DNA of 8,797 nucleotides from Chloroflexota bacterium (lineage in GTDB: Bacteria; Chloroflexota; Anaerolineae; Promineifilales; Promineifilaceae). Position numbers and translations under genes: made by a program. The stretch spans positions 1 to 8,797 of the forward strand of contig QQUD01000826.1 in NCBI GenBank assembly GCA_008501785.1, in the 5' to 3' direction. Below, in pieces: positions 1 to 8,797 of the stretch; position 1 is the first letter of the stretch, and each line of letters begins with the position of its first letter. The notes beneath the pieces were generated by a model, which saw only the letters and a list, made by a program, of their open reading frames with translations, had not been told where the DNA came from and searched no databases.

Positions 1-116
1 GAGCCAATGGCAAAAACGCCAACAGCTATTGAAGCAATAACAAGTATGGATCGGGTGCGATCTGCCCACAAGTCGGCCAATACTTTACGGACACGTGGGG
101 ATATTTTTTTCAACAT
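1..116 (-). CDS. FtsX/MacB-type ABC transporter permease, N-terminal fragment
   Basis: This is the first 38 codons of a gene that leaves the window at its left edge. The start codon at 116-114 overlaps the stop of the ABC ATPase gene as TAATG, and a perfect AGGAGG (124-129, minus) lies 7 bases upstream, so the two genes are translationally coupled. The peptide begins [17 protein letters not shown], then has a basic patch (ADRTRS) followed by a hydrophobic segment (ILVIASIAVGVFAIG). This basic stretch followed by the first membrane helix is typical of the N terminus of FtsX/MacB/LolC-type permeases. Its position directly behind a double ATPase agrees: the ATPase would power this membrane subunit. 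The substrate cannot be told. Only the N terminus is visible, so the family call rests on this short match plus context. Confidence 0.75.
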   Translation of the reverse strand, partial: MLKKISPRVRKVLADLWADRTRSILVIASIAVGVFAIG

Positions 117-2053
117 TAGACAGCCTCCTGCACACGACGTGATAAATTCTCTTCTTGTCGTTCGTGGGCGACTTGCCTCAGGTAGGCAATCGTCGGAGGC
201 GATTCATCGATAATTTTGCAGAATAGTTCTTTAGGCAGCATGGCTAATTTGACAGGGCTGTTCCCGGCACGGACGGTGGCAATGGCATTTTGGTTGCCAA
301 GCAGTTCAATTTCGCCAAAGAATTGGTTGGATGTGAGGTGGGAAACGGCCGTTTCCACCACCCCATTATCCACCACATCCACCTGCCCACCTTCCACCAT
401 GTAAAAATAATCCACCGACTCACCCTGTCGAATAATCATTTGTCCCGGTTCATAGACTCGTTTTTCTAGCGTGTGGGTTGCTTGCAGCATCAAATGATGC
501 TCCAACGACGGCATGACTTTCGCTACCGTCGGGTCGATTAGCTCACCATCCGCAATAATAATATTGCGATCTGTGCGACTAGTGAGCGACGGATCATGTG
601 TCACAATCAAAATCGTTTTACCCCGGTTTGCCAGCTCTTGAAACACTTCAATCACAATATCAGCCGAGCGCGTATCAAGATTACCGGTTGGTTCGTCGGC
701 CACAATGATCGGCGGATCTGTCGCCAGTGAGCGCGCAATGGCTGCCGCTTGTTGTTGTCCGTTGGAAACGTTGGCTGGCAAATCATATGCGTGTTCCTCA
801 AGGCCAACCATTTTCAGAAGTTCTAAGGCGCGTTGCGGCCGTTCTTGATACGCATACACATTGCAATAATCCATCGGCAAAATCGTATTTTCCAACAGCG
901 TCAGTGTAGGCAGCAGTTGGAAAAATTGGAAGACAATTCCCACCTGGTGCCCACGCCACAGCGCCCGTTTGCTTTCCGACAAGCTGTAAATATCTTCGTC
1001 ACCAATCGTCACTTGCCCCGATGTGGGATGATCAATGCCGGTGAGCATGTTCAGCAGCGTCGATTTACCACTGCCAGATTTGCCTACCAACGACACAAAT
1101 TGTCCATAATTAATTTCTAAGTCAATTCCTTTCAACGCCGTGAAGCTGCCAGCCGCATTCACATACGTTTTCACCACATTTTCTAAGTGGATAGCTGGCT
1201 TGGACGTGTCGTGGTTCGTTTGTGTGTTCAGGTTCATCAAAACGGGTTTGTTATGTTGCCCATTTGGGTGAACACTAGTTTCCTTCTCTGTCTCTGCCCC
1301 CTGCCCAATCACGTTCAGCGCGTCTTCCTGATGTGTAGATTCGGCCAATCCATCAACCAATTCCCCATCAGAAATGTGCAAGCAGCGCGAAAACCGGGGA
1401 ATGAGTTCGGCGTCATGCGTCACCATCACCACCGTTTTCCCCTGATCAACCAGTCGAGAAAATATGTTGAAGATGGTTTCGGACGTGACTGAATCGAGGC
1501 TGCCGGTTGGCTCGTCGGCAATAATCACCTGGGGATCATTGATTAAAGCTCTGGCAATGGCAATCCGCTGTTTTTGACCGCCGGAGATGTGGGCGGGAAT
1601 CTTATACGCATGTTCACGCAGTTCGACCATGTCTAACAGTTTCAATGCTTGGTCCTGACTCACGCCAGTCTGGTACTGCCCTAAAAATTCTTGCGGCAGC
1701 ATGATATTGTTTGCCAAATCCAGTTGAGGCAGCAGCTCAAAGGATTGATAGACGATGCCCATGTTGTGTCCCCGCCAAACCGCCAGTTCATCCTGGCTCA
1801 TGCTGCCAATGGAAAGTGGGGCGTTATCCGTTGTTTCATTTTGAGGATGGAACAATACCTCTCCTGAGGTGATGATGCTGACACCGGACAGCATGTTGAG
1901 CAAGGTTGTTTTGCCAGCACCCGATTTACCCACAATGCCTAAAAACTCGCCCTTTTTCACGTCGAGGGTGATGCCATTGAGGGCGGTAAATCCTCCGGCA
2001 CCGGTGTGATAGGTTTTTGTTACGTCTTTTAGTTGAAATATCAAATTAGTCAT
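116..2053 (-). CDS. Double ABC transporter ATP-binding protein (MacB/LolD type) fused to a cyclic-nucleotide-binding-like domain
   Basis: This 645-residue protein has three domains. NBD1 (about 5-240) has Walker [10 protein letters not shown] (42-50), Q-loop Q103, signature ISGGQ (156-160), Walker B VIIADE (176-181) and switch His213. NBD2 (about 287-510) has Walker [10 protein letters not shown] (324-332), Q376, a degenerate signature [10 protein letters not shown] (429-438, where the family usually has LSGGQQQRVA), Walker B IIVADE (449-454) and His486. Residues 240-285 form a polar linker. The C terminus (about 520-625) resembles a cNMP-binding/CRP-type beta barrel, with [11 protein letters not shown] (535-545) and a phosphate-cassette-like [18 protein letters not shown] (579-596). 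The cassette Glu is kept (E581), but the Arg that normally holds the cyclic phosphate appears to be Ala590. The NBDs look like the MacB/LolD/FtsE class that pairs with FtsX-type permeases, which fits the overlapping downstream gene. The gene sits 18 bases behind the regulator gene with only a weak SD (AGAGAA). Domain calls are firm; substrate and ligand are unknown. Confidence 0.9.
124..129 (-). promoter_or_regulatory. Shine-Dalgarno of the permease gene inside the ATPase gene
   Basis: AGGAGG on the minus strand lies 7 bases before the ATG at 116-114, within the last codons of the ATPase gene. It supports the TAATG overlap start of the permease and translational coupling of the two genes. Confidence 0.75.
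341..356. repeat. Best copy of the dispersed palindrome GAAACGGCCGTTTC
   Basis: GGAAACGGCCGTTTCC is a perfect 16-base palindrome inside the cNMP-like domain of the ABC ATPase gene, where it encodes ETAVS. The core AACGGCCGTT occurs exactly at 344-353, 2081-2090, 3016-3025, 3512-3521, 3993-4002, 4651-4660, 6049-6058, 7204-7213, 8609-8618 and 8765-8774. ACGGCCGT without the full 10 bases occurs at 3740-3747, 5050-5057, 5805-5812 and 8549-8556. Shorter CGGCCG cores occur at 836, 4313, 4366, 6029, 8132 and 8704. Confidence 0.9.
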
Positions 2054-2071
2054 AGTTTCTCTGGTTAGGTT

Positions 2072-2785
2072 TTATTTGGAAACGGCCGTTAACCCCGAAA
2101 AAATCTTGCGCAACTCATCAGCCAACAATCGACATTCGTCAGGCGACAATTTACGCACAATCTCTTCGTATTGCAGCACATGTTCAAGCAGTATGTTTGA
2201 CCATTCACGGTCTTCAGTTTCATCTTGTGCCAAAATGCCAAAGGCAAATCCGCCTAACAAACAATGATTTGCGGGGGAAATGTCGCCTTCACTCGGTAAA
2301 ATATCGTTTAAATACGAAACGTACTTTTGCTGACCTGCATGATGGCGCAGCCGCACACCAATCACCATCATTACTTCTAAACAATATCGGATATGTTCTG
2401 GACCTTCTGGTGGAATGCGGGACAAGATTTCTGTTTCATATTTCTCTTCGGGGATTAGACCAAGCCGGACTTTTTCTAACACGAATTTCTTCAACGCTTC
2501 CACATTAGGAGGAATCGAGCCAAATTTATTAATCAGGCGTTGTTCTGGTTTCATGACCGGGTAAAAAAGCCGCTCCGCCCGACCGGGGCCAGATTTACCT
2601 TCGGCAACATGATATTCTGAGATGACGGCCCCTTTTTCTTCAAGCAGCCGCAGCATATCGTAAGCCGTAAATGGACTGACACCGAGTCGTTCCGCCAGCA
2701 TTGAATAATGGATGGGTCCGTCTATTTCTTGTGATAAGTCAATCAAATTTTCAATAAATTGTTCTTGCCGTCGCGTCAATTTCAT
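2072..2785 (-). CDS. Winged helix-turn-helix transcriptional regulator, probable regulator of the ABC operon
   Basis: This is a 237-residue soluble protein. Residues 1-75 form a winged HTH: helices around 5-20, a helix-turn-helix at HYSMLAERLGVSPFTAYDML (26-45) and a wing that includes GKSGPGRAERLFYPV (about 62-76). Residues 80-237 are mostly helical with no enzyme motif that I recognise, and probably form a sensing or dimer domain. It is the first gene of a leftward operon with the double ATPase and the FtsX-type permease, so local control of that transporter is the natural inference. A promoter (2827-2855) and several dyad-symmetric sites (2862-2997) lie upstream, as expected for autoregulation. 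No clear SD precedes the ATG at 2785-2783; instead there are two direct copies of TTTGGTTATTTT. The last residues (LTAVSK) are partly encoded by a copy of the AACGGCCGTT palindrome at 2081-2090. I cannot assign a named subfamily. Confidence 0.8.
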   Translation of the reverse strand: MKLTRRQEQFIENLIDLSQEIDGPIHYSMLAERLGVSPFTAYDMLRLLEEKGAVISEYHVAEGKSGPGRAERLFYPVMKPEQRLINKFGSIPPNVEALKKFVLEKVRLGLIPEEKYETEILSRIPPEGPEHIRYCLEVMMVIGVRLRHHAGQQKYVSYLNDILPSEGDISPANHCLLGGFAFGILAQDETEDREWSNILLEHVLQYEEIVRKLSPDECRLLADELRKIFSGLTAVSK

Positions 2786-2815
2786 AAAATAACCAAATTT
2801 CCCAAAATAACCAAA
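2786..2815 (-). repeat. Direct repeat just upstream of the regulator start codon
   Basis: AAAATAACCAAA occurs at 2786-2797 and again at 2804-2815, 18 bases apart (TTTGGTTATTTT on the coding strand). The copies fill the predicted 5' leader up to the start codon, where an SD would be expected. They could be operator half-sites for the regulator or a translational control element; only the repeat itself is seen. Confidence 0.6.
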
Positions 2816-2826
2816 ATATCTCGAAA

Positions 2827-2855
2827 ATGATAATGATTTACATCGCTATCGTCAA
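2827..2855 (-). promoter_or_regulatory. Sigma70-type promoter of the regulator-ABC operon
   Basis: On the minus strand, TTGACG (2855-2850) and TATCAT (2832-2827) are separated by exactly 17 bases. This gives a predicted transcript start near 2820 and a leader of about 35 bases to the ATG at 2785. The dyad sites from 2862 onward lie directly upstream of the -35. Confidence 0.65.
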
Positions 2856-2861
2856 CCCCAA

Positions 2862-2870
2862 TAGGACCAA
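2862..2870. promoter_or_regulatory. Putative operator, near-copy of TTGGACCAA
   Basis: TAGGACCAA lies just upstream of the -35 of the regulator promoter and shares GGACCAA with the two better sites centred at 2918 and 2962. Centre spacing to the next site is 52 bases, close to five helical turns. Confidence 0.4.
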
Positions 2871-2910
2871 TTTCACCCGCTGTTCATCTATAATAACAGT
2901 CGAAATACCA

Positions 2911-2969
2911 AGATTGGACCAAATTACGATAACCATGCAGTTTGGGTTACTAGAAAATTGGTCCAATCT
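2911..2969. promoter_or_regulatory. Extended dyad with paired TTGG(A/T)CCAA sites, putative operator
   Basis: AGATTGGACCAAATT (2911-2925) and AAATTGGTCCAATCT (2955-2969) form an inverted repeat matching at 14 of 15 positions. A nested pair TAACC (2930-2934) and GGTTA (2945-2949) shares almost the same centre. Each arm also contains its own 9-base dyad, TTGGACCAA or TTGGTCCAA. The element lies upstream of the regulator promoter, so it is best read as a double operator, although a 59-base foldback element is possible. Confidence 0.5.
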
Positions 2970-2977
2970 ACGCTAAC

Positions 2978-2997
2978 AATCAACCGATTGGTTGATT
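2978..2997. promoter_or_regulatory. Perfect 8-base dyad, putative operator
   Basis: AATCAACC (2978-2985) and GGTTGATT (2990-2997) are perfect inverted copies around a 4-base centre. The size is typical of an operator. It belongs to the same dyad-rich block upstream of the regulator gene; no partner protein is proven. Confidence 0.4.
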
Positions 2998-3211
2998 AGA
3001 AAATCGACCGGTGAGAACGGCCGTTTCCCCCCTCCGCAAAGGCAACCGCAGTCACCGCGCATTAGATCAATCATTGGCGTTTACCTGCTCATGACTTTAA
3101 CGCCCAAATCAATCGCCAAACTCAATCCACGACGCTATCATAAAAGCGAACAAGCGGATGTAGTTGATGATTAACTGAGGGTTGGAGACGTGCAATTAAC
3201 TATCCGTTTTA
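2998..3211. other. Non-coding spacer
   Basis: No credible gene is seen here. The stretch holds one AACGGCCGTT palindrome (3016-3025). A plus-strand open frame to 3174 needs a TTG start inside the 2978-2997 dyad, has no SD and matches no family, so I leave it out. Confidence 0.5.
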
Positions 3212-3221
3212 GTCAAGCAAA

Positions 3222-3250
3222 TTGACCGAGAACTGAGCTTGCTATATTAT
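3222..3250 (+). promoter_or_regulatory. Sigma70-type promoter of the lysine-rich small protein
   Basis: TTGACC (3222-3227), a 17-base spacer and TATTAT (3245-3250) predict a start near 3257 and a leader of about 100 bases. GTCAA (3212-3216) and TTGAC (3222-3226) form a short inverted repeat over the -35, which could be a small operator. Confidence 0.6.
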
Positions 3251-3340
3251 CATTGCCAATCTTCATTTGTAAAATACGGGACAAGTGATGAGAGATCATA
3301 TTTTTGGAATCTTTCAATCCTGGCATCCCGGCAATTCCCT

Positions 3341-3350
3341 AAGGAGGTGA
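3341..3350 (+). promoter_or_regulatory. Perfect 10-base Shine-Dalgarno that fixes the start at 3356
   Basis: AAGGAGGTGA matches the full anti-SD region of 16S rRNA and lies 5 bases before ATG 3356. It shows that the short frame from 3356 is translated, and that upstream starts in the same frame (from 3239) are not needed. Confidence 0.85.
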
Positions 3351-3355
3351 AGAAG

Positions 3356-3460
3356 ATGGGTAAAGGACAAGAAAAAGGCAAGAAGGGTAAGACCAATAAA
3401 CCCAAGCTGAGTATCAAAGAAAAGAAAAAGAAGCGTAAAGGGAAAAAAGACGCTGATTAA
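3356..3460 (+). CDS. Small lysine-rich basic protein, 34 residues, function unknown
   Basis: The product begins MGKGQEKGKKGKTNKP and ends KGKKDAD. Fifteen of its 34 residues are Lys, with one Arg and no Cys, Trp, Tyr or Phe. It has no signal peptide or membrane segment, so it is probably an unstructured cytoplasmic polycation. Short proteins with a Lys-Gly-rich head and a KLSIKEKKKKRKGKK-like tail occur scattered through bacteria without a known role; nucleic-acid or ribosome binding would suit the charge but is inference. Support that it is a real gene comes from a good promoter (3222-3250), a perfect 10-base SD 5 bases before the ATG, and a terminator 39 bases after the stop. It appears to be a single-gene unit. 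The strong translation signal suggests it is made in quantity. Confidence 0.75.
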   Translation: MGKGQEKGKKGKTNKPKLSIKEKKKKRKGKKDAD

Positions 3461-3498
3461 TTAGAATTCTAACCTTACAGGTTAATTTACTGAAACAA

Positions 3499-3535
3499 AA
3501 AAAGGGTGAGAAACGGCCGTTTCCCACCCTTTTTC
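3499..3535 (+). terminator. Intrinsic terminator built on the AACGGCCGTT palindrome
   Basis: Positions 3499-3534 are a 36-base inverted repeat with one A/C mismatch (3509 against 3524). The arms start AAAAAGGGTG and end CACCCTTTTT, and the centre is GAAACGGCCGTTTC. TTTTTCTTTT follows on the plus strand and a run of seven T on the minus strand, so it could work both ways. It ends the lysine-rich gene at 3460. Confidence 0.8.
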
Positions 3536-3850
3536 TTTTGCATATAAAACTGAATCTGATTACCGATATGTGCCTTCGTTTGATACATTTATGCCGGGTG
3601 AAAACTTGTACGACCCTAAGCGTTTAGCCCTTTGTTCTGCTGCCATGACTGTATTCCACAACAACCTCACCAATTGTATCTATTTGTGAACTTCTTCACG
3701 AAAATTGATAAACTTTAGCTTTGTTTTATGATTTTAGAAACGGCCGTAATTCACTTTGTACGCCTATTCCCCCATGATATACTTCTTGAACATTGTGTTA
3801 TTAGATACCTTTTGTAGCTTTTTCAATGATATGGGTTCTAATACAGAACT
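3536..3850. other. Non-coding stretch before the dynamin gene
   Basis: No gene is supported here. A 32-codon frame from ATG 3591 to TGA 3689 has no SD and no recognisable family. The stretch holds one palindrome copy with a changed last base (AACGGCCGTA, 3739-3748) and a possible promoter at 3705-3732. Confidence 0.5.
3705..3732 (+). promoter_or_regulatory. Possible promoter of the dynamin-like gene
   Basis: TTGATA (3705-3710) and TATGAT (3727-3732) lie 16 bases apart, one short of ideal. The predicted start would be near 3739, at the palindrome copy 3739-3748. The leader would be about 160 bases long. This is the best candidate in the gap but not a strong one. Confidence 0.35.
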
Positions 3851-3885
3851 GGTTAATGGTTAATTGTTAACTGGTTAATTGTTAT
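3851..3885 (+). repeat. Degenerate heptad tandem repeat upstream of the dynamin-like gene
   Basis: TTAA recurs at 3853, 3860, 3867 and 3875, with TTAT at 3882, so the units are 7, 7, 8 and 7 bases long. GGTTAATTGTTA occurs twice exactly (3858-3869 and 3873-3884). The array ends 19 bases before the chosen start codon and lies in the 5' leader. Related short-unit arrays occur at 5653-5750 and 8421-8507. Confidence 0.6.
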
Positions 3886-3903
3886 GGTGAAATGGAGCAA
3901 AAC

Positions 3904-5658
3904 ATGGACGCAATTCTTAGTCCTGAGCAAGAAGACCTACTCAAACGAACGCGCAACACGCTTGGTGACTTGCGTGATATATTGGCGGAAACAACGGCCG
4001 TTTCCGATGATCGCGCCGCATTGGCCGACTCGATTCGACAGCTAGACGATTTATTTTTGCTGGTCGTTGCCGGTGAATTTAACGCTGGCAAATCTGCCTT
4101 CATCAACGCCTTGCTTGGGCAGAACATCCAGATTGAAGGGGTAACGCCAACCACAAGTCAAATTTACCTGCTGAAATATGGCGAAAAAATGGAGCAAATC
4201 CCTGGTGAAAAAGGGACCTGGATACAAACAGCCCCGATGGAGATTTTGCAAAAGATCAGCATCGTAGACACGCCTGGAACCAACGCCATTGTGCGCGAAC
4301 ATGAAGCGCTCACGGCCGAATTTATCCCACGCAGCGATTTGGTGCTGTTTATCACATCCGCCGACCGGCCGTTTACCGAAAGTGAACGCACCTTCCTCAC
4401 CCAAATTCGGGATTGGGGCAAAAAGATTGTGCTGGTTGTGAACAAAGTTGACATCCTGCCCACCGCAGAGGATGTGAAAAAGGTGCTCGATTTTGTGACC
4501 AGTTCGGCACATAATCTGGTGGGGGAGATTTCGGCTGTTTTCCCAGTGTCGGCAAAATTGGCTCAGGAAGCCAAGGCTGGCAAACCACAAAATTGGGAAG
4601 CCAGTGGGTTTGATCCGCTGGAGACATTTATTCACGATACGTTGGACGATAACGGCCGTTTTCGTCTCAAACTCCTTAACCCCATCGGCGTTGGTCTCAA
4701 GCTTGTGCAAAAACAGCTCGATTTTGTAGCAACCGACCTGACATCACTAGCTGAAGACCGGCAGCTGCTCGGTGACATCGAATCGCAAACGACATTTTAC
4801 AATGAAGACATGCAGCGCAACTTCAAGGCACGTCTCAGCGAAATGGACAGCACACTCTATGAAATGGAAAAGAAAGGGAACGATTTCTTTGACGAGATGA
4901 TTCGCTTTTCCCGCATTTCAGATTTGGTACGCTCGAAGCAGTTGGAACGCGCTTTTGAACAAAAAGTGGTTAACGACACGCCTGCTCAGATCGAAAAACG
5001 AGTCAGTGAACTGGTCGATTGGATGGTTGAGCAAGATTTGCGCCAGTGGACGGCCGTTGCCGATCACCTATCCAGGCGTAAACTCACCAACGAAGATCGT
5101 CTGGTCGGGCAATCTGGCCCACGAGAAGGAACGCTGGCCTATGACCGGCAGCGGCTGATCGAATCCATCGGCGCATCCACCCATCGCGCCATCGAAAGTT
5201 ATGATCGGGATCGAGAAGCGGCTGAACTAGCCGATTCAGCACGTTCGGCTGTGATTGGAACTGGTTTGGCTGGCGTGGTTGGGGCTGCTGGATTAGGCGT
5301 TGCCATTGCTGGTGGGCTGCATCTCGTTTTCTTAGATGTGACCGGCATTGTGGCAGGCATTGCCTTTGCCACATTAGGCGCACTCATTTTGCCCGCTCGC
5401 CGCCGCAAAGCCAAAAAAGAGCTTTCCGATAAACTAACCACATTGCGAGACAGGCTGGTCTCCACCCTCACCGAGCAATTTCAACGCGAAATGAAACGCA
5501 GCGCCCAACGTGTCGAAGATACTGTAGCCCCCTTTTCTCGGTTTGTCCGCGCCGAAAATGAAAAATACACCAACCAGCACGACAGCCTTGAAGAATTGGA
5601 AGCGCATCTGCTTGGTTTACAAGCGCATCTGCAAGGAGACAAAGTAGCAAATAATTAA
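3904..5658 (+). CDS. Bacterial dynamin-like GTPase
   Basis: This is a 584-residue large GTPase. Numbered from the ATG at 3904, G1 is GEFNAGKS (57-64), the G2 Thr lies in VTPTTSQ (about 80-86), G3 is DTPG (122-125), G4 is NKVD (180-183) and PVSAK (214-218) is near G5. The GEFNAGKSAFIN form of G1 marks the bacterial dynamin family. A long helical stalk follows. Two glycine-rich hydrophobic segments (about 448-472 and 474-497) precede the basic patch ARRRKAKK, as in a membrane-inserting paddle, and then a coiled coil runs to the C terminus. Such proteins bind and remodel the inner membrane. I chose 3904 because GGAG (3894-3897) lies 6 bases before it; an ATG at 3892, four codons upstream, is possible but has no proper SD. 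The gene stands alone, without the second dynamin gene often found beside such proteins. Two palindrome copies lie inside it (3993-4002 and 4651-4660), with a near copy at 5049-5058. Confidence 0.9.
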   Translation: MDAILSPEQEDLLKRTRNTLGDLRDILAETTAVSDDRAALADSIRQLDDLFLLVVAGEFNAGKSAFINALLGQNIQIEGVTPTTSQIYLLKYGEKMEQIPGEKGTWIQTAPMEILQKISIVDTPGTNAIVREHEALTAEFIPRSDLVLFITSADRPFTESERTFLTQIRDWGKKIVLVVNKVDILPTAEDVKKVLDFVTSSAHNLVGEISAVFPVSAKLAQEAKAGKPQNWEASGFDPLETFIHDTLDDNGRFRLKLLNPIGVGLKLVQKQLDFVATDLTSLAEDRQLLGDIESQTTFYNEDMQRNFKARLSEMDSTLYEMEKKGNDFFDEMIRFSRISDLVRSKQLERAFEQKVVNDTPAQIEKRVSELVDWMVEQDLRQWTAVADHLSRRKLTNEDRLVGQSGPREGTLAYDRQRLIESIGASTHRAIESYDRDREAAELADSARSAVIGTGLAGVVGAAGLGVAIAGGLHLVFLDVTGIVAGIAFATLGALILPARRRKAKKELSDKLTTLRDRLVSTLTEQFQREMKRSAQRVEDTVAPFSRFVRAENEKYTNQHDSLEELEAHLLGLQAHLQGDKVANN

Positions 5659-5750
5659 TTTGTGAATTGGTGAATTGTTAAATGATTAATTAAAGGAGGA
5701 GGCGCTCCGCTCATTAACAATTCACCAATTCAACAGTTCAACAATTAATT
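5653..5750. repeat. Long hairpin repeat between the dynamin and DUF402 genes
   Basis: TGAATTGGTGAATTGTTAA (5663-5681) is repeated in perfect inverted orientation at 5714-5732 (19 bp). AATTAATT arms lie further out (5653-5660 and 5743-5750), and GGAG/CTCC pairs near the tip (about 5699-5709). Within each arm, 8-base units are loosely repeated (CAATTCAC, CAATTCAA, CAGTTCAA, CAATTAAT). It lacks the GC-rich stem and T-run of a terminator and resembles a small foldback repeat. An SD-like AAGGAGG lies in the loop (from about 5694), too far from the next ATG to act as its SD. Confidence 0.75.
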
Positions 5751-5770
5751 ATTCTCTTCTATCCTCCCGT

Positions 5771-6229
5771 ATGTCCGACTTCACCGTCCACAAACTAGAC
5801 GAAAACGGCCGTCTTATCCTCAGCTATCCCGCAAAAGTGTTAGAGCGCACCAACAACCATATTCGGCTAGAGGCATTTTTTAGCCGGGATGATATGGAGT
5901 TGGGATACGTAACGTTTAAGCGGGGAGACCGGTTTGTGGAATATTTTTACACAGACCGTTGGTACAACGTATTTGCAATTTATGATCGGGATGATGCGGT
6001 GTTTAAGGGGTGGTATTGCAATATTTGTCGGCCGAGTGTGATTGGGGAAACGGCCGTTCATTGCGAAGACCTCGCGCTTGACATTTGGATCGATCCCCAA
6101 GGCCAAACCACCATTCTCGATGAAGACGAGTTTGCCCAGCTTGCCATTTCTCAGAAAGAAAAGCACGCGGCACGAATAGCCCTCGACAAACTAATATCAG
6201 TTGGCAATCTGCAAAAACTGCCAACATAA
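5771..6229 (+). CDS. DUF402 family protein
   Basis: The product is 152 residues and soluble. The family core runs from about 42 to 125: VEYFYTDRWYNVFAIYD (56-72), the conserved KGWYCNI (79-85), DLALDIWIDPQG (100-111) and LDEDEF (116-121), with acidic residues placed as in DUF402. Members include the nucleoside tri/diphosphatase Ntdp of Gram-positive bacteria and FAU-1-like RNA-binding proteins, so metal-dependent hydrolysis of a nucleotide is plausible but not shown. A helical tail (122-146) follows. The ATG at 5771 has no SD (ATCCTCCCGT precedes it) and lies 20 bases after the hairpin repeat, so translation may depend on an unstructured leader. ENGRL (11-15) and ETAV (93-96) are encoded by a near copy and an exact copy of the AACGGCCGTT palindrome. 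The gene ends in a terminator that overlaps its stop codon. It may be cotranscribed with the dynamin gene 112 bases upstream, but the hairpin between them makes this uncertain. Confidence 0.8.
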   Translation: MSDFTVHKLDENGRLILSYPAKVLERTNNHIRLEAFFSRDDMELGYVTFKRGDRFVEYFYTDRWYNVFAIYDRDDAVFKGWYCNICRPSVIGETAVHCEDLALDIWIDPQGQTTILDEDEFAQLAISQKEKHAARIALDKLISVGNLQKLPT

Positions 6230-6260
6230 AAACACCCTCTAGTAAAGAAGGGTGTTTTTT
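6228..6260. terminator. Two-way intrinsic terminator between convergent genes
   Basis: AAAAACACCCT (6228-6238) pairs perfectly with AGGGTGTTTTT (6249-6259) around a 10-base loop, with a T-run on both strands. The left arm begins within the TAA stop of the DUF402 gene. It serves that gene on the plus strand and the membrane-protein gene ending at 6294 on the minus strand. Confidence 0.85.
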
Positions 6261-6293
6261 GATTGATAGATATGATCTTTCCAGTAGAGTCGA

Positions 6294-6833
6294 TTATGGT
6301 TCTAAACCAAAAACAATTCCTGAAAAAACATTCCCAATTTGAGGCCCAAGTAAGGTTAATATTGCAATCACAACCACTGGAATAATACAAACCAATGCCA
6401 CAACACCAATGATAATCGCAGTGGTAGTGTTCTTATTTGACCCTTTTTGCATCTCTGCCATTTCTACAGAACCCGTGCCATCAAACAAATTTTGGTTTTG
6501 CACAAACCAGTAAAGAATACCACCGTTAATCACGGCTGAAATAATGAAAGAAATCACGCCGCCAAACAATGACAACAAAATACTAAGCGATTGCATAACA
6601 ACAACAACCCACCAGCCCCATTTTTGCATGCGCCAAATGCCAACAGCAGCAGCGATAGCAGGTGCAGCAAATGCGACATAAATTAGGCCAAAAATGAAGT
6701 CAGGGTCGGATACAACAATACCTATTCCACCCAATATCATAAGCCCAGCTCCAGCTATCAATAAAACTGCATAGGCTGTCACACAACCGGGGCGATAAAC
6801 AGCGCCTTTCGAATAATCAGAAGTATCGGACAT
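6294..6833 (-). CDS. Small multi-pass membrane protein with a pilin-like C-terminal segment, function unknown
   Basis: The product is 179 residues. A short polar N terminus (1-16) is followed by hydrophobic segments at about 17-41, 46-66, 72-91 and 92-110. A polar stretch (112-136) follows, then a last hydrophobic helix (137-162) and the tail LLGPQIGNVFSGIVFGLEP. The final part (IPVVVIAILTLLGPQIGNVFSGI) resembles the hydrophobic helix and IGNVFS end of Flp-type pilins and of other short bacterial membrane proteins, but no prepilin peptidase site precedes it. I recognise no named family for the N-terminal part. The start at 6833 is chosen because GGAGGG (6838-6843, minus) lies just upstream; the open frame continues to 6989, but that extension is not supported. 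Terminators at 6228-6260 and 7030-7062 flank the gene, so it is probably transcribed alone. Confidence 0.7.
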   Translation of the reverse strand: MSDTSDYSKGAVYRPGCVTAYAVLLIAGAGLMILGGIGIVVSDPDFIFGLIYVAFAAPAIAAAVGIWRMQKWGWWVVVVMQSLSILLSLFGGVISFIISAVINGGILYWFVQNQNLFDGTGSVEMAEMQKGSNKNTTTAIIIGVVALVCIIPVVVIAILTLLGPQIGNVFSGIVFGLEP

Positions 6834-6938
6834 ATTTCCCTCCAGAGAAACACACATGAAGAAACCAATAAATTTTCTACACGATTGAGTAAGGGAAAGG
6901 CAAACGTTTTTTATAGAGAGTGCATAAAACGCAAAGCT

Positions 6939-6944
6939 ATTATA
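6939..6944 (-). promoter_or_regulatory. Possible -10 box for the small membrane protein
   Basis: A perfect TATAAT lies on the minus strand about 106 bases before the start at 6833, in AT-rich DNA. No good -35 is seen 17 bases upstream, so this is a half-supported promoter. Confidence 0.35.
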
Positions 6945-7029
6945 TCCATTGTATTCAAAAAACCGAAACTGATGCAGCAAAACAGGCACTCAACGCCTTA
7001 CAGCTAGTCGCAACCTAACAAAATTTACC

Positions 7030-7062
7030 AAAATAAAAACGCCCTCCAACCTGGAGAGCGTT
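7030..7062 (-). terminator. Intrinsic terminator of the Yip1-family gene
   Basis: On the minus strand AACGCTCTCCA pairs with TGGAGGGCGTT around a 3-base loop, with one mismatch (7043 against 7057). A T-rich tract (TTTTTATTTT) follows. It lies about 30 bases after the stop at 7093. Confidence 0.8.
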
Positions 7063-7092
7063 CGATTTCAAACAGTTACTAATTTATTGCAT

Positions 7093-7641
7093 TTACTGAC
7101 CAAACCCTTGCAAAGCTTCAAGGCTGGCACCTGCGGTCAGGCCAACAGCTGTCAAAATCGCAGCAATAATAAGGGAAACAACAAAAACAGCGATAAATGC
7201 GATAACGGCCGTTGCCGCAGCCTTTCCATTGTCCAGGTCAAGCCCCTGACGAATTGCAATGAACGTACAAACCAGCGTCCAAATCCAACCAATAAACGAA
7301 CCGCACACTGGAATAATGCCTAAAATACCGGGGGCCTGAGCAAAACCTAACACACGCAGCATCTGGCCCATGGTGGATTGGCCACCAAATAATGAGGTGC
7401 CAACGAAGTAAGTGACAGCTGCCCAGATAAACCAGCCTACAAACGCATTAAGAACCGTACTTATGAAGCTTCCAAGAAAACTTCCACCCATTGCGGCATT
7501 GATCCCACCACCAATCAAACCACCAATGATGGCTACGATGGCTACAACAATAGCCGCCTGAGAGGTTGCACTTTCGTCTGCTTCGATTTCTTCATAAGTG
7601 TTAACATCTAGTTTGAGTACGCCAATTATTCGATTAATCAC
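7093..7641 (-). CDS. Yip1 family membrane protein
   Basis: The product is 182 residues. The cytoplasmic N terminus MINRIIGVLKLDVNTYEEIEAD is the usual opening of bacterial Yip1-domain proteins, and residues 26-165 contain about five hydrophobic segments (about 29-49, 58-81, 100-117, 118-132 and 141-165). The stretch GTSLFGGQSTMGQMLRVLGFAQAPGILGIIP (81-111) is the most characteristic part of the family, which is widespread but without a defined biochemical role in bacteria. The start is GTG at 7641-7639, supported by AGGAGG (7649-7654, minus) 7 bases upstream and by the family N terminus. The open frame to 7719 begins with TTG and adds an unrelated 26-residue stretch. ATAV (143-146) is encoded by the palindrome at 7204-7213. 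Terminators at 7030-7062 and 7774-7809 bracket the gene, so it is transcribed alone. Confidence 0.85.
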   Translation of the reverse strand: MINRIIGVLKLDVNTYEEIEADESATSQAAIVVAIVAIIGGLIGGGINAAMGGSFLGSFISTVLNAFVGWFIWAAVTYFVGTSLFGGQSTMGQMLRVLGFAQAPGILGIIPVCGSFIGWIWTLVCTFIAIRQGLDLDNGKAAATAVIAFIAVFVVSLIIAAILTAVGLTAGASLEALQGFGQ

Positions 7642-7648
7642 TGAATAT

Positions 7649-7654
7649 CCTCCT
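7649..7654 (-). promoter_or_regulatory. Shine-Dalgarno that fixes the GTG start of the Yip1-family gene
   Basis: AGGAGG on the minus strand lies 7 bases before GTG 7641-7639. It decides between this start and the upstream TTG at 7719. Confidence 0.8.
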
Positions 7655-7773
7655 AAATCGTTGAGTGAGCAAAATCGCCCATTTACTAATAAAACCCAAT
7701 ACAAGCTAAACAGTTTCAAAATGAATCAAATAGATTTGTCGCCTTTAGGGGAAGTCACCTCCTTGATTTACTA

Positions 7774-7809
7774 AAAGAAGGACAATTCATTACGAATGAG
7801 TCCTTCTTT
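7774..7809 (-). terminator. Intrinsic terminator of the DUF4126 gene
   Basis: AAAGAAGGAC (7774-7783) and GTCCTTCTTT (7800-7809) are perfect inverted copies. An inner TCATT/AATGA pair (7787-7791 and 7795-7799) extends the stem across a small bulge. On the minus strand it ends in TTCTTTTAG, 6 bases after the stop at 7815. Confidence 0.75.
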
Positions 7810-7814
7810 CAACT

Positions 7815-8402
7815 TCACGCTTGACTAAAAGCTTCACGCCGCTTTTTGCGACGACGATACCAACGAAAAACAAAGTAAGAAAAAATAGCAAATAAAATGA
7901 TGGCCAGCAGTGGAAGGAAAATTGCCACCAGCGACATGAAAAATGCAGTTACGTCTTCAACAATGCTGACAGCCCAATTTCCGGTTCCGGCGGTGGTAGC
8001 TGTGACAACAGGGCGTGCCATGCCTTTAGCCGTATGCACCCCACCAGCCAAAATCAAACCAGCGCCCAAAGCCAACACTGGATGAATATCTGTGACCACA
8101 TTGGCATTGGCGGCAAACAAAATCGCACCTGCGGCCGGACGGACAAAGGTTTGAATGGTGTCGTTGAGGGTATCTATGGCGGGAATTTTGTCTACTGTCA
8201 TTTCAATGAGCAATAGCACGACCAAAATGCCAATCGCCCACCATGAGCCAATCACATGATAGGGTTCGCTCAAGTCGAGTAAGGGATTGTTTAACGGAAA
8301 TCGTGCAGCGAGCGCGACAATCAGCAGCGGAATATACGCATTTAAACCTGCGCTGCCTGCTAAACCAAATGCGGAGCCAATACCAGCAATTGCTTCAATC
8401 AT
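7815..8402 (-). CDS. DUF4126 family membrane protein
   Basis: The product is 195 residues. The N-terminal GLAGSAGLNAYIPLLIVALAARF (13-35) and the later EMTVDKIPAIDTLNDTIQTFVRPAAGAIL (67-95) are hallmark stretches of DUF4126, a family of small bacterial inner-membrane proteins of unknown function. Hydrophobic segments lie at about 9-33, 53-70, 90-104, 107-122 and 152-180, and the C terminus is strongly basic (WYRRRKKRRE), which suggests a cytoplasmic tail. The start at 8402 is chosen because GGAGG lies 5 bases upstream and because the family N terminus begins there. The frame stays open to 8489, but those extra 29 codons are read through the heptad repeat array and are very unlikely to be translated. 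The gene is followed at once by its own terminator. Confidence 0.9.
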   Translation of the reverse strand: MIEAIAGIGSAFGLAGSAGLNAYIPLLIVALAARFPLNNPLLDLSEPYHVIGSWWAIGILVVLLLIEMTVDKIPAIDTLNDTIQTFVRPAAGAILFAANANVVTDIHPVLALGAGLILAGGVHTAKGMARPVVTATTAGTGNWAVSIVEDVTAFFMSLVAIFLPLLAIILFAIFSYFVFRWYRRRKKRREAFSQA

Positions 8403-8420
8403 TTTGTCCTCCGAAGAAGA

Positions 8421-8507
8421 GAAGTGAATAGTGAATAGTGAATAGTGGGAAGTGGGAAGTGGGAAGTATAAGTACTCATCACTCACCACTTGCCACTATT
8501 CACTTCC
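8421..8507. repeat. Inverted array of heptad repeats
   Basis: The left arm is three AGTGAAT units (8423-8443), three AGTGGGA units (8444-8464) and AGTATA (8465-8470). The pivot is the palindrome AGTACT (8471-8476). The right arm runs in strict 7-base steps that all begin ACT: ACTCATC (8474), ACTCACC (8481), ACTTGCC (8488), ACTATTC (8495) and ACTTCC (8502). GAAGTGAATAGTG (8421-8433) and CACTATTCACTTC (8494-8506) are perfect inverted copies. The array fills the gap between two minus-strand membrane-protein genes and touches the stop codon of the upstream one (8507-8509). Confidence 0.85.
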
Positions 8508-8797
8508 TAAAGCCCTGGAATCCCAACGATGGTTCCTGTAAGCTGCAAACGGCCGTAAGTGATAATGCTTAATTCGATGATTGCCAAAGCTAACCCTATT
8601 GTGAGCGGAACGGCCGTTTCTCGCCACCTAGTCGCCAATCCATCTTTTCGAAAAATCGTTAGCAACAAAATCGTGTTAATCGCCGTCACAATCGTGATCA
8701 CACCGGCCGTACTTACAATTGCCAATACGTAATTGATGGTTGGTTGGTTGCTGAGGAGAAGGAGAACGGCCGTTCCCGCCACCGCCACCACCACCAA
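8507..8797 (-). CDS. Membrane protein, C-terminal part only, family not recognised
   Basis: The frame is open from the right edge to TAG at 8509-8507, giving the last 96 residues of a protein whose start is outside the window; the first visible codon is an internal TTG. Hydrophobic segments lie at about 1-16, 22-48 and 66-84, separated by FRKDGLATRWRETAV, a basic loop that is probably cytoplasmic. The tail GRLQLTGTIVGIPGL is short. I see no motif that gives a function. The segment carries an unusual density of the palindrome: two exact copies (8609-8618 and 8765-8774) and near copies at 8548-8557 and 8703-8710, encoding TAV, TAV, YGR and a shifted form. The stop codon borders the heptad array. 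Confidence 0.65.
   Translation of the reverse strand: MVVVAVAGTAVLLLLSNQPTINYVLAIVSTAGVITIVTAINTILLLTIFRKDGLATRWRETAVPLTIGLALAIIELSIITYGRLQLTGTIVGIPGL

Follow-up and report, generated by a model that had tools for sequence, protein, structure and literature searches.

What is the short palindrome AACGGCCGTT that recurs along an 8,797-nucleotide stretch of Chloroflexota bacterium DNA (contig QQUD01000826.1, positions 1–8,797; hereafter the window, meaning that whole stretch), and what could have put it there? The window contains ten exact copies of this 10-mer, as compared with a mean of 0.02 and a maximum of 1 in 200 dinucleotide shuffles. The 8-mer ACGGCCGT contained in it occurs 14 times, four of these being sites beyond the 10-mers (starts 3740, 5050, 5805, and 8549), and the hexamer CGGCCG occurs 20 times. 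These counts bear out the first-pass annotation of the window, which had reported the ten copies and four additional sites. It had also noted a lean of the flanks to GAAACGGCCGTT, found here at nine copies (both strands counted), and a placement in genes, intergenic DNA, and a terminator. Eleven of the 14 8-mers are indeed genic, and three lie in intergenic region 2786–3891, where one occupies the apex of a hairpin resembling a terminator. HIP1 (GCGATCGC), the highly iterated palindrome (HIP) of cyanobacteria to which the word had been likened as symmetric, genome-wide, and tied to no single gene, has no copy in the window, L001, or L002, so the word is not HIP1 proper. The likeness itself holds up in whole-genome counts and in a side-by-side test of HIP1. 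We are practically certain that this is a real genome-wide HIP1-like word in an order of Anaerolineae. Beyond what had been noticed earlier, its strict unit is CGGCCG, its flanks differ between lineages, and the coding space available to it is nearly saturated.

The nearest relatives found through the dynamin-like GTPase encoded in the window are the metagenome-assembled genomes (MAGs) Anaerolineae bacterium IP29b_bin.94 (74% identity) and Anaerolinea sp. CH6 (69% identity). AACGGCCGTT occurs 3716 times in the genome of the first (G001) and 2492 times in that of the second (G002), and the reversed word, which has equal base composition and served as the control, only 6 and 25 times; the genome count in relatives thus went the way a genome-wide word predicts. 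Across 56 genomes of the order of G001, AACGGCCGTT occurs more than 1000 times in 18, 361–877 times in 11, and at most 149 times in 27. In a search of 396 genomes of the class, ACGGCCGT exceeded 1000 copies in 22 of the 35 members of the order, with 14,867 in G007, and reached a maximum of 430 in the class genomes sampled outside the order (n=361). A draw of 400 genomes from the phylum contained three members of the order, with 6919 (G001), 646 (G037), and 549 (G034) copies of ACGGCCGT; the highest count in any other genome was 471. In the genomes sampled, the word is therefore a property of one order, and in its word-rich genomes the palindrome is dispersed genome-wide and lies far above expectation, as HIPs do. 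The first-pass annotation had proposed comparison with a Markov model of order 6 or higher. In a G029 sample the ratio of observed to expected counts fell from 64 under an order-3 model to 4.0 with order 5, 1.35 with order 6, and 0.99 with order 7; because models of order 6 and above include the word's own sub-words, we judged this test unsuitable.

The word has a strict core and variable flanks. ACGGCCGT is the top 8-mer in a 374-kb sample of G029, in which each one-base variant within CGGCCG occurs 0–5 times, as against 314 10-mers (both strands counted). The outer two bases of the word are looser (variants 6–129), and the consensus extends to 16 bp, GGNAACGGCCGTTNCC, with G preferred at two outer positions; beyond it the flanks are weakly biased. 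Related genomes use alternate words, as is also seen among HIPs. Alongside the A dialect with ACGGCCGT there is a T dialect with TCGGCCGA (9414 copies in G009 and 7668 in G027; controls 27 and 125) and a G dialect with GCGGCCGC (12,040 in G044; control 2). In the genomes of these three dialects that were counted, the reversed control is 17 to 6000 times rarer than the genome's own 8-bp word, and in the mixed-flank genome G052 it is 6 times rarer. In G010 the hexamer CGGCCG is found 21,019 times (control 132), equal to 5.1 per kb or roughly one in every 195 bases, and G048, G050, and G052 have 19,906, 19,809, and 25,568 (controls 768, 1835, and 7284). In small samples no flank is fixed in G010, G050, and G051, and A and T are enriched in G048; the sample of G041 was masked (all N) and that of G055 partly so. 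The fraction of 8-mers lying within a full 10-mer varies by genome, being 6% in G007, 27% in the G029 sample, 54% in G001, and 82–84% in G012 and G011, and thus the favored word ranges from 6 to 10 bp.

CGGCCG exceeds GCCGGC by ~10- to 270-fold in G042, G001, G048, G010, and G044, and by 3- to 5-fold in the GC-richer A-type genomes G003, G018, and G007, in which the excess sits in ACGGCCGT. Avoidance of a restriction site at CGGCCG does not fit this over-representation in eight genomes of the order. Separately, GCCGGC is nearly absent from two genomes in which CGGCCG is extreme (132 copies in the 4.1 Mb of G010 and 51 in the 8.0 Mb of G044). The opposite ratio was seen in five class-mates outside the order, with CGGCCG and GCCGGC counts of 2 and 192 (G285), 7 and 858 (G394), 16 and 1479 (G106), 13 and 862 (G176), and 92 and 5312 (G170); some class-mates thus shun the core that is saturated in the order.

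How completely the word fills the sites open to it was determined by an occupancy test. For each frame of the word, peptides that can be encoded by it were listed in samples of 367–400 kb, and the share actually spelled with the word was counted. In G007, 360 of 375 Thr-Ala-Val (TAV) tripeptides are spelled ACG GCC GTN (codon use predicts a fraction of 0.154), and 221 of 245 [DHNY]GR tripeptides are spelled with the word (0.046 predicted). In G029 the corresponding counts are 248/272 and 167/200. G027 has no ACGGCCGT in its sample and uses TCGGCCGA at 342/388 SA[DE] and 131/221 [FILV]GR sites, while G044 uses GCGGCCGC at 362/421 AAA and 117/149 [CGRS]GR sites. Codon use predicts 9–16% for the first frame and 2–5% for the second. 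The third frame (xRPy) is filled to 63–71% (G007 95/137, G029 90/143, G027 91/142, and G044 85/120). Small samples of G010 show CGGCCG itself near saturation (RP 14/19; [STPA]A[VADEG] 35/42). When the residues are reordered, G029 is near expectation (VAT 6/51, ATV 9/43, RGD 1/18), with two small sets slightly over it (RGY 2/12, RGH 1/8). By arithmetic from the occupancy counts, the bias in G007 amounts to ~5 natural-log units per codable site. Word density in G029 is similar in coding and non-coding DNA (1.55 and 1.42 per kb).

The proteins themselves are affected. TAV occurs 375 times in the G007 sample as compared with 53.8 expected from amino acid use, a sevenfold excess; SAE occurs 246 times in G027 (37.4 expected) and AAA 421 times in G044 (93.9 expected), the last to be read against an excess of AAA in all samples (for example, 180 observed and 121.7 expected in G007). 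The word-poor G034 has no TAV excess (55 observed, 55.8 expected), and is still biased to CGGCCG, with 28 of these 55 spelled with the word (0.242 expected).

Orthologous sites in rpoB provided a control. Codable rpoB sites carry ACGGCCGT at 83/91 in A-type genomes (a group that takes in G014 and the 10-bp genomes), at 2/65 in word-poor genomes (which take in the G034–G041 clade), at 7/17 in mixed-flank genomes, and at 0/7 in T genomes; the T genomes instead have TCGGCCGA at 7/8 codable sites. G044 has GCGGCCGC at 0/1, and the word-poor genomes have TCGGCCGA at 13/71 and GCGGCCGC at 3/26. At alignment column 1487 (Tyr-Gly-Arg) the word is found in 22 of 23 A-type genomes, the exception being the 10-bp genome G011. 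This difference in occupancy at orthologous sites, and the weakly biased flanks past the 16-bp consensus, mean that the words form in place by substitution rather than as a copied mobile unit, a further trait of HIPs. In a tree of 50 RpoB proteins (G001, G015, G028, G032, G036, and G049 of the 56 genomes being missing), the word-poor G034, G035, G037–G041, and G023 fall inside a starred 32-row group that is otherwise A-type, the exact place of G034, G035, and G037–G041 within the tree not being settled. The fork uniting G023 with five word-rich genomes has a support of 91 and is not starred. By RpoB, then, G023 is word-poor among word-rich genomes (ACGGCCGT 155, control 886). Its rpoB columns 1487 and 1556 read ACGGTCGT and ACGGTCGC, with GGTC in place of the word's GGCC, and it looks as if the force had been lost in G023 and its words were decaying.

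The word is also found on phage contigs. A scan of IMG/VR with the 16-bp consensus returned at least 120 stretches; among the matches listed, 37 carry three or more copies of ACGGCCGT at a density of 0.9 per kb or higher, and 36 of these were used as the dense viral set (L135 was left out, and the other 83 of the 120 lie outside the set). Ten large open reading frames (ORFs) from five dense contigs each have a match among the phage families for head, portal, terminase, tape-measure, or endolysin proteins. In the 36 loci the word is used at 233/251 TAV and 138/199 [DHNY]GR sites, TAV itself is raised (251 observed, 39.6 expected), and occupancy is at least 0.6 in all 20 contigs with five or more codable sites. 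As these loci were selected for density, they cannot show how common such phages are. Control viral loci with less than 0.3 words per kb have 126 TAV (98.7 expected), of which 55 are spelled as the word, a figure inflated because these loci were found with a pattern containing the word. A gene common to the dense loci was not found, the largest clusters reaching five loci, with an endolysin as the example from one cluster. Since the word is as dense on some phage contigs as it is in hosts, the earlier suggestion of a DNA uptake tag is weakened in the part that would have it mark self. A paired TCGGCCGA scan of viral sequences gave one locus among 120 with at least one word per kb and at least five copies, and 11 of the 12 densest TCGGCCGA loci have a GC content of at least 0.60, so a T-dialect phage set is not clear. 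L479 (IMG/VR; 11,121 bases; GC 0.52), with 11 copies of TCGGCCGA and none of the reversed control, is a possible T-dialect phage.

What force fills the sites of host and phage alike? We consider a repair or conversion bias more likely than selection for a binding site. The strict core CGGCCG, usually with one or two lineage-specific flank bases per side, would be the target of substitution, and a host factor with a sequence-specific repair or conversion activity would read the word and resolve mismatches or heteroduplexes at near-words in its favor. Any DNA that replicates in the cell would be subject to such a bias; host and phage would consequently drift to similar near-saturation, with protein sequences pulled along by that drift. 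A site-specific bias of this kind on all DNA in the cell is our tentative explanation, to which we give somewhat less than an even chance. Its widest form is a methylation-independent 'word drive', in which the whole DNA content of the cell, that of phages as well, is driven to the word of a host repair or recombination factor whose specificity can evolve. That form would also have dialects changing among ACGGCCGT, AACGGCCGTT, TCGGCCGA, GCGGCCGC, and CGGCCG, a rewritten proteome, and HIP1 as a second instance. It appears possible to us but is decidedly doubtful.

Several observations weigh against a repair or conversion bias. No responsible enzyme or protein has been identified, and Vsr, the known mismatch endonuclease of such a style, was found in only 8 of the 56 genomes. 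That host and phage resemble each other serves as an argument and does not measure mutation. Saturation is weaker outside the first frame, as in the [FILV]GR sites of G027 (131/221) and the third frame of four genomes (63–71%). Spacing of the words is near random in G029, G007, G044, and the phage set (coefficient of variation, CV, 1.01–1.15), and is more even than random for TCGGCCGA in G027 (CV 0.85). There, in samples L104 and L289–L307, gaps under 100 bp make up 7.6% as compared with 14.8% expected, unlike in the A and G dialects. Pairs of words closer than 100 bp are fewer than expected at random in all five sets. Occupancy climbs with distance from another word, from 28/41 (<60 bp) to 64/65 (600–1200 bp) in G027 and from 46/61 to 55/60 over the same ranges in the phage set; overlapping sites within runs of alanine confound the short-range drop in G044. 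The spacing in G027 and the phages agrees better with selection whose returns diminish than with a bias acting autonomously at each site. Beyond 1200 bp occupancy falls below the 600–1200 bp level in all five sets (8–22 sites each), which we read as recently acquired DNA.

This spacing makes selection for a spaced binding site a serious rival to the repair or conversion bias. The word would then be read by an abundant chromosomal protein, serving the nucleoid, segregation, or repair tagging, under weak selection per site and with a specificity that shifted between lineages. A strict core with graded symmetric flanks resembles the footprint of a dimer, the shortage of words within 100 bp of one another (clearest in G027) is as such a protein would have it, and published statistics, in the portion of the paper available, favor selection for HIP1 (PMC6604393). 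However, occupancy is nearly total at 60–150 bp from the next word in G007 (166/175) and G029 (98/105), the chosen phage loci are similarly occupied though their need for host chromosome organization should differ, and the amino acid sequences are altered. We consider a binding site a possible cause, on balance a doubtful one.

The model of Elhai, in which DNA is marked by a core-specific cytosine methyltransferase and the genome is then ratcheted to that enzyme's recognition site by methyl-directed mismatch repair, seems unlikely here. In cyanobacteria HIPs are associated with methyltransferases, according to the available text of PMC4390886. Many genomes of the order hold such enzymes, with matches to PF00145 (cytosine-5 methyltransferase) in 26 of 56 and to PF01555 (N6/N4 methyltransferase) in 52 of 56, 45 of these over the cut-off. 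For neither family does presence track the word, and methylation by known cytosine methyltransferases, raised in the first-pass annotation, finds no support as a general cause. No PF00145 match is present in the word-rich G001 and G007, whose best PF01555 E-values are 5e-4 and 4.6e-4; the intermediate G014 likewise lacks a PF00145 match and has a best PF01555 E-value of 6.2e-5, and G052, with its 25,568 CGGCCG, matches neither. With these profiles, no strong candidate for the word-modifying methyltransferase that would be expected of a HIP was found in these four genomes; a gene may be missed in one MAG, but less so in all four. Nor is density kept near one per kb, as shown by the 5.1 per kb of G010.

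Sixty enzymes (at most two per genome and family, and part of all matches) were clustered. At 40% identity, one PF01555 cluster has seven members, from the A-type genomes G004, G008, G012, G019, G024, and G029 and the word-poor G037, and one PF00145 cluster has 11 members from nine genomes of several types. From these clusters, an enzyme common to many genomes, though not to all, is possible. The PF00145 cluster is loose (many pairs near 40%) and has a tight core of G010, G034, G049, and G050, which counts against the methyltransferase model in that it includes the word-poor G034. The G050 member matches 3lx6/3me5, which we take to be a Dcm (CCWGG), with an E-value of 1e-108, as compared with 2.5e-27 for HaeIII (GGCC). 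As judged by sequence, the tight core looks like Dcm rather than a GGCC enzyme. Very-short-patch repair by Vsr does not track the word either, as two of its eight genomes (G034 and G039) are word-poor.

A protective tag is very unlikely. A host defense would spare DNA bearing the word or modified at it, and hosts and phages would both be selected to gain it, which agrees with some phage contigs being as dense in the word as hosts. The core of DNA phosphorothioation in Streptomyces is GGCC, which fits within CGGCCG. However, the word fills codable sites even when the next copy is near and an extra tag should bring little, and the phosphorothioation (Dnd) system does not track the word, with DndC over the cut-off in 5 of 56 genomes and any match in 10. 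Chance, composition, or an assembly artifact has virtually no standing, being refuted by the counts against the reversed controls (17 to 6000 times rarer, and 6 times in G052) and by the agreement of many genomes and orthologous rpoB sites.

The window itself illustrates the pattern. It has 13 sites codable for ACGGCCGT in its genes (three peptide patterns), and the word is present at 11, encoding Thr-Ala-Val at eight, Asn-Gly-Arg (NGR) at two, and Tyr-Gly-Arg (YGR) at one; the palindromes are given without strand. AACGGCCGTT encodes TAV in the ABC-ABC-cNMP gene (344–353) and in the helix-turn-helix (HTH; Fe_dep_repress) gene (2081–2090). It is intergenic at 3016–3025 and at 3512–3521, the latter being the apex of the terminator-like hairpin (about 3499–3534), and the 8-mer ACGGCCGT is intergenic at 3740–3747. 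The dynamin-like GTPase gene has AACGGCCGTT at 3993–4002 (TAV) and 4651–4660 (NGR) and the 8-mer at 5050–5057 (TAV), and the DUF402 gene has the 8-mer at 5805–5812 (NGR) and AACGGCCGTT at 6049–6058 (TAV). AACGGCCGTT encodes TAV in the Yip1-domain gene (7204–7213) and twice in a 96-amino acid ORF (8609–8618 and 8765–8774), which also has the 8-mer at 8549–8556 (YGR). A DUF4126 protein completes the gene content. The gene at 116–2053 (minus strand) encodes a single protein with two ABC ATPase domains and a C-terminal cyclic nucleotide-binding domain. Directly 5' of the hairpin is a lysine-rich 34-residue ORF, P0001 (3356–3460, plus strand), which is directly preceded by a strong Shine-Dalgarno-like AAGGAGGTG; tblastn of P0001 against the fetched loci gave no match, and an Rfam search of the window gave none. 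AACGGCCGTT also occurs within a Thermus regulator site described in the available part of PMC6651687.

The force that generates and maintains HIP1 has yet to be settled, and a different phylum now offers what appears to be an independent second case. With relatives in one order that are rich in the word, poor in it, or switched in dialect, gene content can be compared in search of the cause, and the occupancy test, as the codable share together with the peptide excess, is a simple yardstick for any such word. The sevenfold rise of one tripeptide in a 400-kb genome sample is a strong example of proteins being shaped by a force at the DNA level. The word could also help to tie phage contigs to uncultured hosts.

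Among known systems, the DNA uptake sequences of Neisseria and Haemophilus occur in thousands of copies, some in terminators, are non-palindromic, and mark self, whereas this word is palindromic and shared by phage contigs. Chi, KOPS, matS, and parS are genome words read by a protein and are oriented or few; we know of no report, having made no search, that they saturate codable sites.

HIP1 is the closest parallel. It is likewise a short strict palindrome with thousands of copies in genes and gaps, and likewise nearly saturates one coding frame with an excess of the peptide. We applied the same occupancy test to 350 kb of two cyanobacterial plasmids. The AIA frame is spelled GCGATCGC at 67/87 sites in Trichormus plasmid A and 33/40 in Synechocystis pSYSM, with AIA itself in excess (87 observed and 25.7 expected, 3.4-fold; and 40 observed and 9.7 expected, 4.1-fold, respectively). 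As HIP1 on these plasmids behaves alike, the word works like HIP1, although the other HIP1 frames (43/67 and 29/72 on plasmid A; 10/26 and 3/19 on pSYSM) are weaker than those of this word in G007. A paired GCGATCGC scan of IMG/VR found HIP1 at 1–4 per kb with at least five copies in 24 of 118 loci examined, among them L623, L676, L694, and L733. In these 24 loci, picked for HIP1 density, 149 of 169 AIA are spelled GCGATCGC (32.9 AIA expected); viral contigs thus share the cyanobacterial word too. HIP1 is said to arise by mutation in place, in the available text of PMC3025956.

The differences from HIP1 lie in the phylum, the core (CGGCCG without GATC), the lack of a constant methyltransferase, a density of the 8-bp word of up to 1.9 per kb, and the presence of three 8-bp flank dialects together with 6-bp and 10-bp states in one order. 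Single cyanobacteria have alternate HIPs (GGCGCC, GCsGC, and rCCGGy; Elhai 2015, PMC4390886). These are similar in that some genomes have a different GC-rich palindrome in place of the usual word. In the text of that paper available, the alternates are sporadic and each genome bearing one has a putative matching methyltransferase, whereas here the core is constant and the flanks change. In the available portions of the literature on Chloroflexi/Anaerolineae and on over-represented palindromes we found no prior report of this word, and in the available HIP literature no prior statement of the peptide effect. The word is thus a HIP1-like system outside the cyanobacteria, with lineage dialects and no constant methyltransferase.

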